From: Chloroflexota bacterium
Lineage (GTDB): Bacteria; Chloroflexota; Limnocylindria; Limnocylindrales; CSP1-4
Direction: 5' to 3'
NCBI GenBank assembly: GCA_025454515.1
Contig: JALOOH010000006.1
Location: forward strand, 1 to 39,523
DNA: 39,523 bases
The notes beneath the pieces are model-generated. The model was not told the origin of the DNA, did not search any database, and saw nothing but the letters and a program-made list of their open reading frames with translations. Both the position numbers and the translations under genes were made by a program. Below are positions 17,052 to 29,195 of this stretch, in pieces; the stretch's first letter is position 1, and every line of letters starts with the position of its first letter.

Positions 17052-17696
17052 ATGTCGTCCCAGCGGTCGTTCTTCCTCGTCCCTGTCCTCGTCGCCCTCG
17101 TCGCCGCGTGCGGCTCCTCGGGAGGAGGTGGTGGCTCCGGCGACCCCGGCAGCGCCGCGGGAACCACGCAGCCCGCCTCCGCCGACGGGGTCGAGCCCAC
17201 CGCCGAAGCCGCCGTCCCGACGGCCGCCGCCGCCGAGCCGACGTCGAACGGGGGCCAGGCCGCCCCGACCGAGCAGGCCGTTCCCCAGGGCGGCGGAGAC
17301 ATCCCGGCCATCGCCGACGGCCCATGGGGAGCAGGGACGGCCACGGCCGAGATGAGCGGCGGCGTCTCGATGACCATGAAGGCCGCGATGCCGGCCGACC
17401 TCGGCTACACGATGGAGGGCCTCACGGTCTTCGTCTTCACGAACGACGATCCGGGGAGTGTCATCAACATCACCCTGTCGCAGTCCGAGCAGTCGGGGTT
17501 CGGCGTCAGCAGCGCACCCGCGAACGTGTCGACCGCCGGAGGCTGGGGCGTCGACGGCTGCGTGATCGATGTCACGAGGAACGACGAGTCGGGGATCGCC
17601 GCGACGTTCGCCTGCGACGACATCCCGGCCATCGGCATGACGGAGGCGAAGGCCTACACGGTGGACCTCGAGGGCAGCTTCGAGGTCGCCCGCTGA
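17052..17696 (+). CDS. Hypothetical secreted lipoprotein
   Basis: MSSQRSFFLVPVLVALVAACGSSGGGGGSGD (lipobox LVAAC), low-complexity Ala/Pro/Thr linker, globular C-terminal domain. Confidence 0.8.
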   Translation: MSSQRSFFLVPVLVALVAACGSSGGGGGSGDPGSAAGTTQPASADGVEPTAEAAVPTAAAAEPTSNGGQAAPTEQAVPQGGGDIPAIADGPWGAGTATAEMSGGVSMTMKAAMPADLGYTMEGLTVFVFTNDDPGSVINITLSQSEQSGFGVSSAPANVSTAGGWGVDGCVIDVTRNDESGIAATFACDDIPAIGMTEAKAYTVDLEGSFEVAR

Positions 17697-17727
17697 GCGC
17701 CGGAGATACGGGCCGCGGCCGTGGCCC

Positions 17728-17753
17728 GGCGGCGCGGCCCCGGCCGCGCCGCC
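17728..17753. terminator. GC-rich hairpin immediately after the lipoprotein gene (12-bp stem, 2-nt centre)
   Basis: ggcggcgcggcc-cc-ggccgcgccgcc about 30 bp downstream of the stop at 17696. Confidence 0.5.
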
Positions 17754-17840
17754 ACTCCCCCCGGCCGCCGCGCCGCGCCGCCGGCCGCCGCTCCTGCGAC
17801 CCGGGCCGCCGGCCGCGGCCGGGGGCCCGGGTCCTGCAGC

Positions 17841-18090
17841 GGATCTTCATCACGCGAAGATCGGCGGCCCGCGTCTTCACCCGGTGAAAGCAACCGGCTC
17901 TCCTGCGCCCGCGCATGCTCCGTCCGCGACCGCCCGGAGCCCCCGGGACCCATCGACGCGACGCTGACCCCGGGCCTCGCCGGGGTGCGACCCGGCCGCG
18001 TGCCGGATCCGTGCACCCGGTGAAGAGGATCGGCACGGCCCGGGCGGATGGAGCGGGCGCGCACGCGGTTCCTTTCACCAGGTGAAGACG
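17841..18090. repeat. Dispersed intergenic repeat element, copy A (partner 28280-28529)
   Basis: Ungapped hand alignment to copy B at a constant offset of 10439; 30 mismatches in 250 nt. Palindromes at 17876-17888 (TTCACCCGGTGAA), 18012-18024 (TGCACCCGGTGAA) and 18074-18086 (TTCACCAGGTGAA), plus inverted repeat 17842-17862. Confidence 0.9.
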
Positions 18091-18274: not shown

Positions 18275-18676
18275 CTACCGCCCGAAGGCCGTCCGGACCC
18301 CCTTCGTGAGGAAGTAGCCAAGGACGACGAGGCTGAAGGCGAGCGACGTGAAGGCTGCCGTGTCCACGCTCGTCACCTCGGTGAACGCCATCGCGGCCAC
18401 AGCCTGAAGCACGCTGATGCCCTGGAGAATGATCGTCAGCCACCAGGCCCAGCGCTTCAGGCTCCAGAGCGCCCACGCGACGAACACCTGGGCGACCCCG
18501 ATGACGAGGTACGTGGCCCCGATGACCGCGACCCCGCTGGCGGACTCGGCGTCGATCCCCGGGTCCGTCCCGCCGAGAGCGTAGGCAGCGAGCGCCAAGG
18601 CGCCGAACACGACCGCGAGCGTCCCGAGAAGCCCGAGCAGCAGGGCGACGATCGCGATCCCGCGCGGTCTCCTCAT
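18275..18676 (-). CDS. Hypothetical 4-TM membrane protein
   Basis: MRRPRGIAIVALLLGLLGTLAVVFGALALAAYALGG...VIGATYLVIGVAQVFVAWALWSLKRWAWWLTIILQGISVLQAVAAMAF...FSLVVLGYFLTKGVRTAFGR. Confidence 0.75.
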   Translation of the reverse strand: MRRPRGIAIVALLLGLLGTLAVVFGALALAAYALGGTDPGIDAESASGVAVIGATYLVIGVAQVFVAWALWSLKRWAWWLTIILQGISVLQAVAAMAFTEVTSVDTAAFTSLAFSLVVLGYFLTKGVRTAFGR

Positions 18677-22997: not shown

Positions 22998-24434
22998 GTG
23001 CGCGACGCGCGCGTGGGAGGCTCGCCGTTCGCCCGGCTGTCGCCGGAGCAGTGCGCGCGCGTCCACGAGGCCGCCGTGGGGATCCTCGAGCGGACGGGCG
23101 CCCGCCTGATGGAGCCGCGCGCGGTCGAGATCCTCCGCCACGCCGGCGCACGGACGGACGGCGACCACGTGTGGATCCCGCGCGAGCTGGTGGACCGTGC
23201 GCTGGCGACCGCCCCGCGCTCGATCACCCTCCACGATCGCACCGGCGCGCCGGCGATGGAGCTCGCCGGGCGGACGTTCTGGGCCGGCCCCGGGTCGGAC
23301 TGCCTCCACGTCCTCGACCATCGGACGGGCGTCCGGCGCACGCCCACGCTCGACGACCTCCGCGAGGGGATCGCACTCGTGGACGCCCTGCCCGAGCTCG
23401 ACTTCATCATGTCGCTCTTCATCCCCGGCGAGGTGGACGGCCGGCTGGCAGACCGCTGGCAGATGGAGGCGATGCTCAACGGGACGACGAAGCCCGTCGT
23501 CATGGTCAGCTACGAGCCGTCCGGGATGGAGGACGCGATCGCGATGGCGGAGGTCGTCGCGGGCGGACCGGAGGCATTCGGCGCGCGGCCCTTCGTGGCG
23601 ACGTACATCAACGTGACCCGCGCGCTCCTCCAGGGACGGAGCGAGCTCCAGAAGCTGCTCTGGCTCGCGGAGCGTGGCTACCCGTTCCTCTGGATCCCCG
23701 TGACGTCGGGCGGGACCACCGGCCCCGTCACCGTCGGCGGGACGCTGGCGCTCAACCAGGCCGGCGTCCTCATCGGGATCGTCCTGAGCCAGCTCGTCCG
23801 CGAGGGCGCGCCGATCGTCGTGCCGGGCTTCGGGGGCGACGGGCTGGACCTGCGGACGATGGTCGATCCGTACGCCGCGCCGGACGCGCGCGGCCCGGCC
23901 GGCGCCCTCGCGCACTGGTACGGGCTGCCGATGTTCAGCCTGGCCGGGGGAAGCGACGGGAAGGTCGTGGACGAGCAGTCGGCCGCGGAGGCGGCGCTCA
24001 CGCTCCTCGTCGACGCGGCCTCCGGGGGCCAGCTCACGCACGACTGCGGCTACCTGGAGTCGGGACTCACCGGGTCGCTCGCGCAGATGGCCATCTGCGA
24101 CGAGATCGTCTCGTGGATCCGCGCCGCGACCCGCCCGATCGACGTCTCCGACGAAGCGCTCGCCCTCGCCGACGTGGATGCCCTCGGGATCGAGGGGTCG
24201 TTCCTGGAGACCGACCACACCCTGGACCGCTACATGGAGCGCTGGTACCCGGCGCTGTTCGATCGCGGGTCGTTCGAGAGCTGGCAGGGGCACGGCGCGA
24301 CGACGCTCGCGCAGCGCGCAGGCGAGCGCGTGGACGCGCTGCTCGCCGCGCACGAGCCGATGCCGCTGCAGCCGGACGTCGCCGCGGCGGTGCACGAGAT
24401 CGTGGAGCGGGCGGCCGAGGCCGCCGGCCTGTGA
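22998..24434 (+). CDS. MttB-family (COG5598) methyltransferase paralog 1, non-pyrrolysine (glycine betaine/quaternary-amine:corrinoid methyltransferase-like); GTG start
   Basis: RLSPEQCARVHEAAVGILERTGARLMEPRAVEILRHAGARTDGDHVWIPRELVDRALATAPRSITLHDR...FLETDHTLDRYMERWYPALFDRGSFESWQGHGATTLAQRAGERVDALLAAHEP; ggaggtg RBS; no internal amber codon. Confidence 0.9.
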   Translation: MRDARVGGSPFARLSPEQCARVHEAAVGILERTGARLMEPRAVEILRHAGARTDGDHVWIPRELVDRALATAPRSITLHDRTGAPAMELAGRTFWAGPGSDCLHVLDHRTGVRRTPTLDDLREGIALVDALPELDFIMSLFIPGEVDGRLADRWQMEAMLNGTTKPVVMVSYEPSGMEDAIAMAEVVAGGPEAFGARPFVATYINVTRALLQGRSELQKLLWLAERGYPFLWIPVTSGGTTGPVTVGGTLALNQAGVLIGIVLSQLVREGAPIVVPGFGGDGLDLRTMVDPYAAPDARGPAGALAHWYGLPMFSLAGGSDGKVVDEQSAAEAALTLLVDAASGGQLTHDCGYLESGLTGSLAQMAICDEIVSWIRAATRPIDVSDEALALADVDALGIEGSFLETDHTLDRYMERWYPALFDRGSFESWQGHGATTLAQRAGERVDALLAAHEPMPLQPDVAAAVHEIVERAAEAAGL

Positions 24435-25205: not shown

Positions 25206-26696
25206 ATGGCGACCCGCATCGACCCCATCGTGAGCCCGAGGCTCACGCTCGAGGTCCTCTCGCCCGACCAGGTCGGGCGGATCCACGAGGCGACGCTCGA
25301 GGTCATCGAGACCGTGGGCGTCCGCTTCCCCACCCCCAAGGCGCTCGACATCTGGGAGGCCCACGGCGCCACCGTGGACCGCGGGCGGCAGGTCGCGAAG
25401 GTGCCGCGGAAGGTCATCGAGGACGCGCTCGCGCTCGCGCCGGCGGCCTACGTCCTCGGTGCCCGCGACCCGTCGCAGGACTGCCCGCTCGACGGCGAGC
25501 ACGTCTTCGCCGCGACCGACGGCTGCGGCATCGAGGTCATCGACATCGAGACGGGCGAGCTCCGTCGCTCCCGGCTGCGGGACGTCGAGGAGATCGCCAG
25601 GGTCGCCGACGCGTGCGACGAGATCGGCTTCCACTGGGTGCCGGTCTCGGCGCAGGACACGCCGGCGGAGAGCCGCGCGCTCCACGAGCTCGCGGCGATC
25701 TGGCGCAACAGCACGAAGCATGCCCAGACGGAGAGCATCGTCACCGAGCACGAGGCCCGGGCCGCGATCGAGATGGCGGCCGCGATCATGGGCGGACACG
25801 ACGCCCTGCGCGAGCGGCCCGTGCTCTCGATGATGCAGTGCACCACCAGCCCGCTCGGGCAGGACGGCGGCAGCATCGAGGCTGCCCTCGTGGCCGCGGA
25901 GCACGGCATCCCCGTCGGGTTCATGACGATGGCCTCGTCGGCCTTCAGCGGGCCGGCGACGCTCGCCGGGACGCTCGTCGTGGGGAATGCCGAGGTCGTG
26001 AGCGCGATGGCGCTCATGGAGCTCGCGTACCCGGGCTGCCCCGTCTACTACGCGGCGGCCCAGACCGCGATGGACCTCCGGAGCGGCGCGTACACCGGCG
26101 GCGGCCCGGAGGACTTCCTCTTCGGCGCCGCGACCAACGCCCTCGCCGACTTCTACCACGTCCCGCTCTCGATGGGCGCGTTCGCGACCGGCGCGAAGGA
26201 GCCCGACTGGCAGGCCGGCGTGGAGAACGCCATGTCCTGCTTCATGGCGTCGGTCGTCACGAGCGACATGCTCCTCGGCGTCGGCCTCCTCAACGGGAGC
26301 CGCATCTTCAGCTACGAGCAGATGCTGTTCGACTGCGAGATCTACTCGATCGTCCGGGCGATGCTCAAGGGCATCGACACGTCCGACGAGGGGCTCGCGC
26401 TCGACGCGATCCGCGAGGTGGGGACCACCCCGGCCGACTACCTCGCGACGAAGCACACGCGCGCGCACATGCGCGAGCTGTGGACCCCGCGATTCATGGA
26501 GCGCCGCCCGTACGGCATCTGGTCGGAAGCCCCCGACCGCAACCGCGACTGGGCGCTCGAGAAGGCGCGGACGATCCTGCGCACCCACCAGCCCGACCCG
26601 CTGGACCCGGCGGTCTCCACCGAGCTCGACCGGATCATCCGGGGCGTCGAGGACGACGTCGCGAGCGGCAGGCTCGTCGTCGCGGCGCACGGGTAG
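25206..26696 (+). CDS. MttB-family (COG5598) methyltransferase paralog 2, non-pyrrolysine
   Basis: LSPDQVGRIHEATLEVIETVGVRFPTPKALDIWEAHGATVDRGRQVAKVPRKVIEDALALAP...SMMQCTTSPLGQDGGSIEAALVAAEHGIPVGFMTMASSAFSGPATLAGTLVVGNAEVVSAM...DYLATKHTRAHMRELWTPRFMER. Confidence 0.92.
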   Translation: MATRIDPIVSPRLTLEVLSPDQVGRIHEATLEVIETVGVRFPTPKALDIWEAHGATVDRGRQVAKVPRKVIEDALALAPAAYVLGARDPSQDCPLDGEHVFAATDGCGIEVIDIETGELRRSRLRDVEEIARVADACDEIGFHWVPVSAQDTPAESRALHELAAIWRNSTKHAQTESIVTEHEARAAIEMAAAIMGGHDALRERPVLSMMQCTTSPLGQDGGSIEAALVAAEHGIPVGFMTMASSAFSGPATLAGTLVVGNAEVVSAMALMELAYPGCPVYYAAAQTAMDLRSGAYTGGGPEDFLFGAATNALADFYHVPLSMGAFATGAKEPDWQAGVENAMSCFMASVVTSDMLLGVGLLNGSRIFSYEQMLFDCEIYSIVRAMLKGIDTSDEGLALDAIREVGTTPADYLATKHTRAHMRELWTPRFMERRPYGIWSEAPDRNRDWALEKARTILRTHQPDPLDPAVSTELDRIIRGVEDDVASGRLVVAAHG

Positions 26697-26700
26697 CCCG

Positions 26701-28173
26701 ATGCGCCCCACGCTCACCCTCCTGGACCCGGGCCTGGAGGCCCGGGTCCTCGACGAGGCGCTCGCGCTCCTCCTGGAGCCGGGCGTCAAGGTCCACGAGC
26801 CGGAGGCGGCCGCACTGCTCGCCGCCGCGGGTGCCGACGTGCGCGACGGCGTCGCCCGGATCCCCGAGCGGGTCGTCCGGGAGGCGCTCGCGACCGTCCC
26901 GCGCTCGTTCGCCCTGTACGACCGCGCCGGCCGCCCGGCCGTCCGCTACGGCGACGGCCTCGTCCAGTTCGACCCCGGGTCGTGCGGCGTCGCCGTCCTC
27001 GACCCGGACACCCTCGAGCATCGGCCGTCCCTGTCGGCCGACCTCGTCCGCCTCGTCCGCGTCGCGGAGGGGCTCGACGCCTATGCCGCTCAATCCACCG
27101 CCGTCGTCTGCGGGGACGTCCCGCCGCCGATCGGCGACCTCTGGCGGCTCCTCCTCGTCCTCCTCAACTCGGACAAGCCCGTCGTGACGGGGGGGTTCGG
27201 GATCCGGACGACGCGGGTGATGCTCGACATGCTCGCGATCGATGCGGGCGGCCCGGAGGCGCTCGCCGCACGTCCGCGCGCCGTCTTCGACGTCTGCCCG
27301 AGCCCGCCCCTCTCGTGGTCCGAGCTCGGCTGCCGGGCCCTCATCGATCTCGCCCGCGCCGGCGTCCCGGCGCAGATGGTCGCCATGCCGCTCGCCGGCG
27401 GGGCCGCGCCCGTGACGCTCATCGGGAGCGTCGTCCAGCACGCGGCCGAGTGCCTCTCGGGGATCGCGATCCACCAGCTCGCGAAGCCCGGGGCGCCGAT
27501 CGTCTGGGGCGGGGCGCCCGCCATCCTCGACATGCGCAGCGGCACCACGCCGATGGGCGCGGTGGAGACCGCGATGATCGACGCCGCGTACGCTCAAGTC
27601 GGAAGGGGGCTGGGGCTCCCCACCCACACGTACCTCGTTGGCAGCGACGCGAAGCTCGTGGACGCGCAGGCCGGGATGGAGAGCGCATGGGGCGCGGTCA
27701 TCGCAGCGCTCGGCGGCGTCGACCTCGTGTCCGGCGCCGGCATGCTCGACACCCTGCTCTGCCAGAGCGCCGAGAAGCTCGTCGTGGACGCGGAGGCGAT
27801 CGCATCGGCGCTGCGGCTCGTCCGCGGGATCGAGACGCCGACCGAGACGCTCGCCACGGCGTCGTTCGCCGCGGCGGGGCCGGAAGGCCGGTTCCTGGAG
27901 CTGCCCGAGACCCGGAAGCTGTTCCGGACCGAGCAGCATCTCCCGTCCGCCGTGGTCGAGCGGCGGTCGTACCGGGCCTGGGCCGATGCCGGCGGCATGG
28001 ACGCGTTCGCACACGCGCGCCAGCGCGCCGACGCGCTCGTCGCCGCGTGGCAGCCGCCGGCGATCGATCCCACCGCCGCCGCGGCGATCGTCGAGATCGC
28101 CCGGCGCGAGGCCGAGGGCGTCGGGCTCGTCGGGATGCCGGGGCTGGATGGGGAGGCGATCGCCGCGGGCTGA
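26701..28173 (+). CDS. MttB-family (COG5598) methyltransferase paralog 3, non-pyrrolysine
   Basis: LDEALALLLEPGVKVHEPEAAALLAAAGADVRDGVARIPERVVREALATVPRSFALYDRAGRPAV...CPSPPLSWSELGCRALIDLARAGVPAQMVAMPLAGGAAPVTLIGSVVQHAAECLSGIAIHQLAKPGAPIVWGGAPAILDMRSG...RFLELPETRKLFRTEQHLPSAVVERRSY. Confidence 0.92.
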   Translation: MRPTLTLLDPGLEARVLDEALALLLEPGVKVHEPEAAALLAAAGADVRDGVARIPERVVREALATVPRSFALYDRAGRPAVRYGDGLVQFDPGSCGVAVLDPDTLEHRPSLSADLVRLVRVAEGLDAYAAQSTAVVCGDVPPPIGDLWRLLLVLLNSDKPVVTGGFGIRTTRVMLDMLAIDAGGPEALAARPRAVFDVCPSPPLSWSELGCRALIDLARAGVPAQMVAMPLAGGAAPVTLIGSVVQHAAECLSGIAIHQLAKPGAPIVWGGAPAILDMRSGTTPMGAVETAMIDAAYAQVGRGLGLPTHTYLVGSDAKLVDAQAGMESAWGAVIAALGGVDLVSGAGMLDTLLCQSAEKLVVDAEAIASALRLVRGIETPTETLATASFAAAGPEGRFLELPETRKLFRTEQHLPSAVVERRSYRAWADAGGMDAFAHARQRADALVAAWQPPAIDPTAAAAIVEIARREAEGVGLVGMPGLDGEAIAAG

Positions 28174-28279
28174 CGACGCGCATGGGCTGACGCCGGGGGC
28201 GAGTGGCCGGGGGCGCTGGCGAGTGCAGCTGCTCCCGGCCGCAGCGTCCCGGGCGCCCGGGGCCCCCGGGCCCTGCAGC

Positions 28280-28529
28280 GGATCTTCACCACGCGAAGAT
28301 CGGCGGCCCGCGTCTTCACCTGGTGGAAGCAACGCGCGCGTCGGCGCCCGCGCACGCCCCGTCCGCGGCCGCCCGGAGCCCCCGGGACCCGTCGACGCGG
28401 TCGGGACCCCGGGCCTCGCCGGCGCATGACCCGGCCGCGTGCAGGGCTCGTTCACCCGGTGAAGAGGATCTGCACGGCCCAGGCGGATGGATCGGGCGCG
28501 CACGCGGTTCCTTTCACCAGGTGAAGACG
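28280..28529. repeat. Dispersed intergenic repeat element, copy B (partner 17841-18090)
   Basis: Same ordered palindromes: inverted repeat 28281-28301, TTCACCTGGTGGA 28315-28327, TTCACCCGGTGAA 28451-28463, TTCACCAGGTGAA 28513-28525. Confidence 0.9.
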
Positions 28530-28787: not shown

Positions 28788-29195
28788 ATGAGTCGGCAGT
28801 TCGTCATCGAGCTCGACAACAGGCCCGGCGAGCTCGCGCACATCGCGCGGGCGCTGGCCGCGCGCGGCGTCGAGATCCGCCACATCTCCACGGCCGGCGC
28901 AGGCGACTGCGCCTGCGCGTTCGTGAACACGACCGACCCCGCCGGGATGCGGATCGTCCTCGACGGGCTCGGCCACAAGTACATCGAGGGATCGCCCGTC
29001 CTCGTGGAGCTCGACGACGTCCCCGGCGCGTTCGCCGGCGTCGCCGCGCGGCTCGACGAGGCCGGCGTGAAGATCTACGGGTCTCTCATCGTCGGGCACA
29101 AGCCCGGCAAGGTCGAGATCGCGTTCTCCGTCGACGACGAGGCGAAGGCGCGCGCGATCCTCGGGATCACCGATCAGGTCGGCGTGAACGACTGA
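28788..29195 (+). CDS. Tandem ACT-domain protein
   Basis: MSRQFVIELDNRPGELAHIARALAARGVEIRHISTAGAGDCACAFVNT...SPVLVELDDVPGAFAGVAARLDEAGVKIYGSLIVGHKPGKVEIAFSVDDEAKARAILG; two ACT motifs; ggggagcggcg upstream of the ATG. Confidence 0.88.
   Translation: MSRQFVIELDNRPGELAHIARALAARGVEIRHISTAGAGDCACAFVNTTDPAGMRIVLDGLGHKYIEGSPVLVELDDVPGAFAGVAARLDEAGVKIYGSLIVGHKPGKVEIAFSVDDEAKARAILGITDQVGVND

Follow-up and report, generated by a model that had tools for sequence, protein, structure and literature searches.

Dispersed repeats of bacteria are mostly known as hairpin-forming REPs or as MITEs bounded by terminal inverted repeats (TIRs). Loop-forming repressors show, as their classic sign, a dependence on whole helical turns over distances of 57-155 bp (PMC1762422), and the KorB protein of IncP plasmids acts cooperatively over long range, in a co-operation that was reported to be insensitive to phase (PMC2680271). 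Prokaryotic MITEs, among them the Correia elements with their IHF site, have been reviewed (PMC10969869). The palindromes of REPs retain their complementarity through paired mutations (PMC2817692). The element described here occurs twice in the window, i.e. the whole stretch of 39,523 nucleotides of a Chloroflexota genome that was analysed. It is best explained, at a probability of about 0.62, as a scattered repeat, non-autonomous and probably mobile, with a helically phased array of operator-type sites, which would be bound cooperatively, loop included, by one putative dimeric protein.

The two copies in the window, A (17841-18090) and B (28280-28529), form a gap-free alignment at an offset of 10,439 and differ at exactly 30 of 250 bp (88.0% identity; BLAST E = 1.3e-90), the same number as was counted by hand in a preliminary description of this locus. 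Their homology starts about 12 bp further to the left than first stated, at ~17829, and ends at 18090; outside, the flanks drop to random identity. The whole homologous unit, also common to a third near-complete copy on another contig (G000:C168:4097-4354, 94% identity to A), therefore covers 17829-18090 in copy A and 28268-28529 in copy B, both on the plus strand. Gene calls and Pfam assignments of the neighbors place both copies between genes, as had been described: A lies between a gene without Pfam match (17052-17696, plus strand) and a DUF7144/DUF2127-like membrane gene (18275-18676, minus strand), B between an MttB paralogue (26701-28173, plus strand, PF06253) and an ACT-domain gene (28788-29195, plus strand). 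No coding gene spans the element, a case that the preliminary description had held out against its own reading. A coding reading was rejected, since most of the length changes within the family (1, 10, 22, ~31 and ~62 bp) are not divisible by three and no common frame is left. The window harbors three MttB-family (PF06253) trimethylamine methyltransferase paralogues between 22998 and 28173 (22998-24434, 25206-26696 and 26701-28173), and long, nearly G/C-only low-complexity stretches surround the element at 17700-17830 and in other intergenic flanks.

Each copy consists of four to five dyads with the core TTCACC-N-GGTGAA (6-1-6, with a free centre base). With the copies normalised by placing the 62-bp pair at the right, all of them show the same order of sites: a TGCA motif, P1, 30 bp, P2, in the five-site form another 30 bp and P3, then a linker, P4, 62/63 bp and P5. 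In copy A, the TGCA motif outside P1, which is kept in most copies, lies at 17835-17838, followed by P1 (CTTCATCACGCGAAG) at 17845-17859, P2 (CTTCACCCGGTGAAA) at 17875-17889, P4 (GTGCACCCGGTGAAG, inside a larger GATCC...GGATC dyad) at 18011-18025 and, 62 bp from P4, P5 (TTTCACCAGGTGAAG) at 18073-18087, all on the plus strand. The linker (17890-18010, no strand) lacks the dyad P3, expected near 17905. Copy B, which has lost P3 as well, carries P1 at 28284-28298, P2 at 28314-28328, P4 at 28450-28464 and P5 at 28512-28526 (plus strand). P2 (CGTCTTCACCnGGTGAAAGSAAC) and P5 are reverse complements of each other over ~23 bp, a relation that in copy A includes the flanks of P2. The symmetric dyad of P4 (GATCCTCTTCACCnGGTGAAGAGGATC) is larger and, in some copies, a nearly perfect 27-bp palindrome. 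Over 97 sites, the half-site reads T[T/G]CAC[C/G], with an invariant C at the third base (194/194) and a random centre base, a pattern that has the look of a dimer-binding site. The final ~30 bp are the same in A and B, as previously noted. The clustering of mismatches between the palindromes, also proposed earlier, stands as a tendency, with 8/103 positions of the 27-bp sites mismatched against 22/147 of the linkers, but does not reach significance for the A/B pair alone (p = 0.11).

The genome of the window (G000) was compared with its closest congener, a sister species (G001), and with two other congeners (G002 and G003). The family comprises ~30 dispersed copies and is lineage-specific, with 17 in G000 and ~12 in G001, and includes sets of recent, near-identical copies (A, B and C168; C266, C280 and C101). 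A and B lie in one contig and are 88% identical, as would be expected from a simple duplication of an intergenic segment; this reading is refuted by the copy number, with many more copies in unrelated surroundings, and G001 has the same array with unrelated linkers. The absence of further copies genome-wide, against which the preliminary description had weighed its proposal, is thus not what was found. At up to two mismatches, the dyad TTCACCNGGTGAA occurs seven times in the window (0.41 expected), each time within A or B. At up to one mismatch, 47 occurrences were counted in G000 (1 for a reversed-pattern control), 39 in G001, 0-2 in G002 and G003, and a background level in 57 other relatives; ordered arrays hold nearly all occurrences in G000 and G001. 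Of 107 genomes of the taxonomic family, a sequence model of P4-P5 picked out two, G000 and G001; from 400 sampled genomes of the phylum, a sample whose listing did not contain G001, a model of P1-P2 picked out a single one, that of the window itself. The phage, plasmid and viral collections searched gave no match, and a literature search with the exact motif strings yielded no relevant paper. All these genomes are fragmented MAGs with copies at several contig ends (the assembly of G000 is ~85% complete), and as the repeat fragments the assembly, the true copy number may be higher than counted. Several contigs terminate within the element with an identical 72-76 bp (the ends of L061 and L064 and the start of L074).

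Two exact dyads were encountered elsewhere in 14 genome and 2 viral stretches, none with the architecture of the element; those inspected (2 viral, 1 Chloroflexi) are repeats inside replication-type coding genes, and the remaining matches, including tandem arrays of Streptomyces, were compared by spacing only. Arrays of the same dyad in Bacillus have a 25/50-bp period and are located between other genes. In Bacillus haikouensis, such unrelated intergenic TTCACC(A/T)GGTGAA arrays with a 25/50-bp period are located near contig ends (L120, 183-446; L122, 4913-5213), one of them upstream of a sigma-54 activator gene.

Palindromes of this kind could form hairpins, in particular the nearly perfect 27-bp palindromes of some P4 copies, and a structured non-coding RNA was among the options first offered for the locus, together with a covariance analysis as a check. 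No covariation was found: on the P4-P5 alignment, 498 of 500 shuffles scored as high or higher. In the search for compensatory changes between dyad halves, none of the five cores reached the permutation mean in within-dyad complementarity (p = 1.0), which means that each half mutates alone. The consensus fold amounts to -0.45 kcal/mol (alifold), Rfam contains no match for the element, and long-range pairing of P2 with P5 is not significant (p = 0.03-0.045 among ~45 tests). Loss of both halves of one site is rare (p = 0.003), a value to which the 4-mismatch detection threshold may add a little. Since the halves do not change together, a reading as RNA or single-strand hairpin is argued against; with the random orientation relative to genes and the whole-turn changes in linker length (see below), a structured RNA or riboregulator is very improbable. 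The same holds for REP/BIME-type palindromic repeats moved by a REP-associated tyrosine transposase (RAYT). That class likewise has palindromes between genes, combined into composite arrays of alternating orientation, but the dyads here lack the paired mutations of REP palindromes and a GTAG head, the copies number 12-17 per genome, and a Y1_Tnp (PF01797) gene was found in 0/4 congeners (G000-G003) by a search that was positive in E. coli and others. This explanation is largely refuted.

The distance between P2 and P4 spans 122 to ~207 bp, and its values cluster at whole turns of B-DNA (10.4-10.6 bp). Phasing reaches R = 0.78 for 23 elements; when the linkers are reduced to 10 distinct length classes, a period of 10.5 bp gives R = 0.80 (p ~0.002), a test that comprises ~10 independent linker lengths classed by the analyst; at periods of 8-9.5 and 11.5-31 bp, the signal is absent. 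Two elements fit the phase more poorly (C19, 153 bp; g1C235, 168 bp). The fixed spacings of 30, 62 and 94 bp are near 3, 6 and 9 turns. Two orthologous pairs of copies differ in their spacings, namely C19 and g1C149 (P3-P4, 113 vs 135 bp; P2-P3, 40 vs 30 bp) and C141 and g1C94b (P2-P5, 196 vs 218 bp). These changes (10, 22 and 22 bp) are whole turns, and the linkers at these sites are unalignable, i.e. the array, as read from sequence, persists while its linkers diverge. Several like dyads at whole-turn spacings, as in a multi-operator looping array, are present. Together with the repeated 6-1-6 dyads and the missing hairpin covariation, this spacing makes a multi-site protein-binding array the best supported among the options initially listed.

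Flank searches located both sides in G001 for eight copies of G000. Six of these sites are vacant in G001 (B, C67, C206, C115, C168 and C199), and two are occupied (C19 and C141). Outgroups are vacant as well at three of them (C115 and C168 in G002, C67 in G003), which indicates that copies were gained; insertion in the lineage of G000 is the simplest reading of the vacant sites. The element is also absent at the positions of G001 and G002 that correspond to copy A, where the upstream gene differs. The checks of copy number and empty sites that had been suggested for the locus thus returned many copies and vacant orthologous sites. Because the flanks consist of fast-evolving G/C-only sequence that is unalignable to the base, the boundaries are not set to the base, and neither an insertion boundary nor a target-site duplication (TSD) is discernible at vacant and occupied sites. 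Very recent copies share ~100 bp of G/C-only flank past P5. An element adjoins the same Fe-S biosynthesis gene in G000 (L064, G000:C131 6380-6617) and in G001 (L079, G001:C121 2640-2960), in opposite orientations, which would reflect either independent insertion at one place or an inversion.

Short, non-coding and dispersed in several copies, with near-identical recent members and vacant sites in relatives, the element resembles MITEs in these traits. If it were a classical MITE, derived by deletion from an IS or transposon, the dyads would represent multiple transposase-binding sites at its two ends and the transposase of the parent would move it in trans, and the left (P1-P3) and right (P4-P5) groups of sites indeed resemble the ends of complex transposons. 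However, the sequences TCTTCACC and GGTGAAGA, initially likened to a short terminal inverted repeat, turned out to be one half of the dyad that is present four to five times per copy. The outer ends, P1 and P5, are inverted only over the core common to all dyads, whereas P5 has its mirror image in the inner P2, and no element-specific TIR is seen. No TSD is resolvable within the G/C-only flanks, and no transposase or IS with these sites was seen in the flanks or in a genome-wide motif search, which also returned no isolated end pairs of a parent transposon or IS in the ~85% complete assembly. Moreover, fused ends would not be expected to produce linker phasing across the middle. An origin as a classical MITE is unlikely. 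From the mobile-element option of the preliminary description, mobility finds support in the number of copies and in the vacant sites at orthologous places; membership in MITEs or REPs is not, given the lack of an element-specific TIR, a demonstrable TSD, compensatory palindrome changes and a RAYT.

Copies are intergenic without exception and, according to a simple gene caller, located between convergent (~6), tandem (10) or divergent (3-4) genes in both orientations. The neighbors are unrelated genes of housekeeping type (M16 peptidase, SRAP, transporter, thiolase, NuoE-like protein, subtilase and others), and this diversity of contexts speaks against an operator for adjacent genes. A family of host regulatory or nucleoid-organising sites (cf. 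RIP/BIME sites and plasmid KorB operators), subject to rapid turnover instead of selfish mobility, would account for the two copies at orthologous places, where conserved sites and whole-turn indels imply selection in place. Such a family is quite doubtful, as two of the four congeners and all other relatives searched lack the element, its copies have neither a gene context nor a promoter position in common, and most of them sit at places that are not shared. No transposase or recombinase gene was seen among the genes adjoining the copies examined. Candidate binders were rejected: two ParB_N genes, considered for a ParB/KorB-type binder, occur in all four congeners irrespective of the presence of the element, a third one, confined to G000, is not near any array, and the HTH gene beside C156 of G001 has its closest homologue in G002, which is without the element.

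In the preferred reading of a mobile repeat with an operator-type array, the four to five dyads (TTCACC-N-GGTGAA) would serve as sites for one putative dimeric protein of the helix-turn-helix type. Whole-turn spacings would keep all dyads facing the same side of the double helix, binding to the left (P1, P2, sometimes P3) and right (P4, P5) groups would be cooperative, and looping of the linker would join both groups in one nucleoprotein complex. This complex may function in the in-trans copying of the element and/or in a chromosome-level role, rather than in the control of adjacent genes. If so, a phased-dyad repeat that occupies different places in sister species yet keeps its whole-turn spacing where it is retained would naturally document selection for a looped nucleoprotein complex. 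It is a more speculative, rather unlikely proposal that the element is a selfish or semi-selfish mobile operator array, copied in trans via the looped complex of one recombinase-like DNA-binding protein, with neither TIRs nor an RNA or ssDNA hairpin step; if true, this would constitute a new kind of bacterial element. Used as bait, the dyad would offer a direct way to the element's binding protein, which perhaps also moves it.

Among the known systems, REP/BIME sequences resemble the element as species-specific intergenic palindromes in composite arrays (PMC2817692), whereas the latter shows no compensatory changes, no RAYT gene, a low copy number and a fixed whole-turn geometry. MITEs are likewise short, non-coding, dispersed, intergenic, gained or lost between relatives, and may carry a protein-binding site (PMC10969869); unlike them, the element has no element-specific TIR, demonstrated TSD or parent IS, and displays an ordered, helically phased array of four to five dyads. 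The KorB operators of IncP plasmids (TTTAGC-C/G-GCTAAA) are also 13-bp 6-1-6 dyads with an odd centre and many sites per replicon (PMC2680271), and cooperative long-range action, predicted from sequence for the element, would be a further likeness. They differ in their sequence, and the element keeps whole-turn spacing and forms clustered arrays instead of single sites. With lac-type repression loops, the element has in common paired dyads and helical phasing as known at 57-155 bp (PMC1762422), and it may share their loop function; in contrast to these loops, it is attached to no promoter or operon, combines four to five sites and changes its locations.
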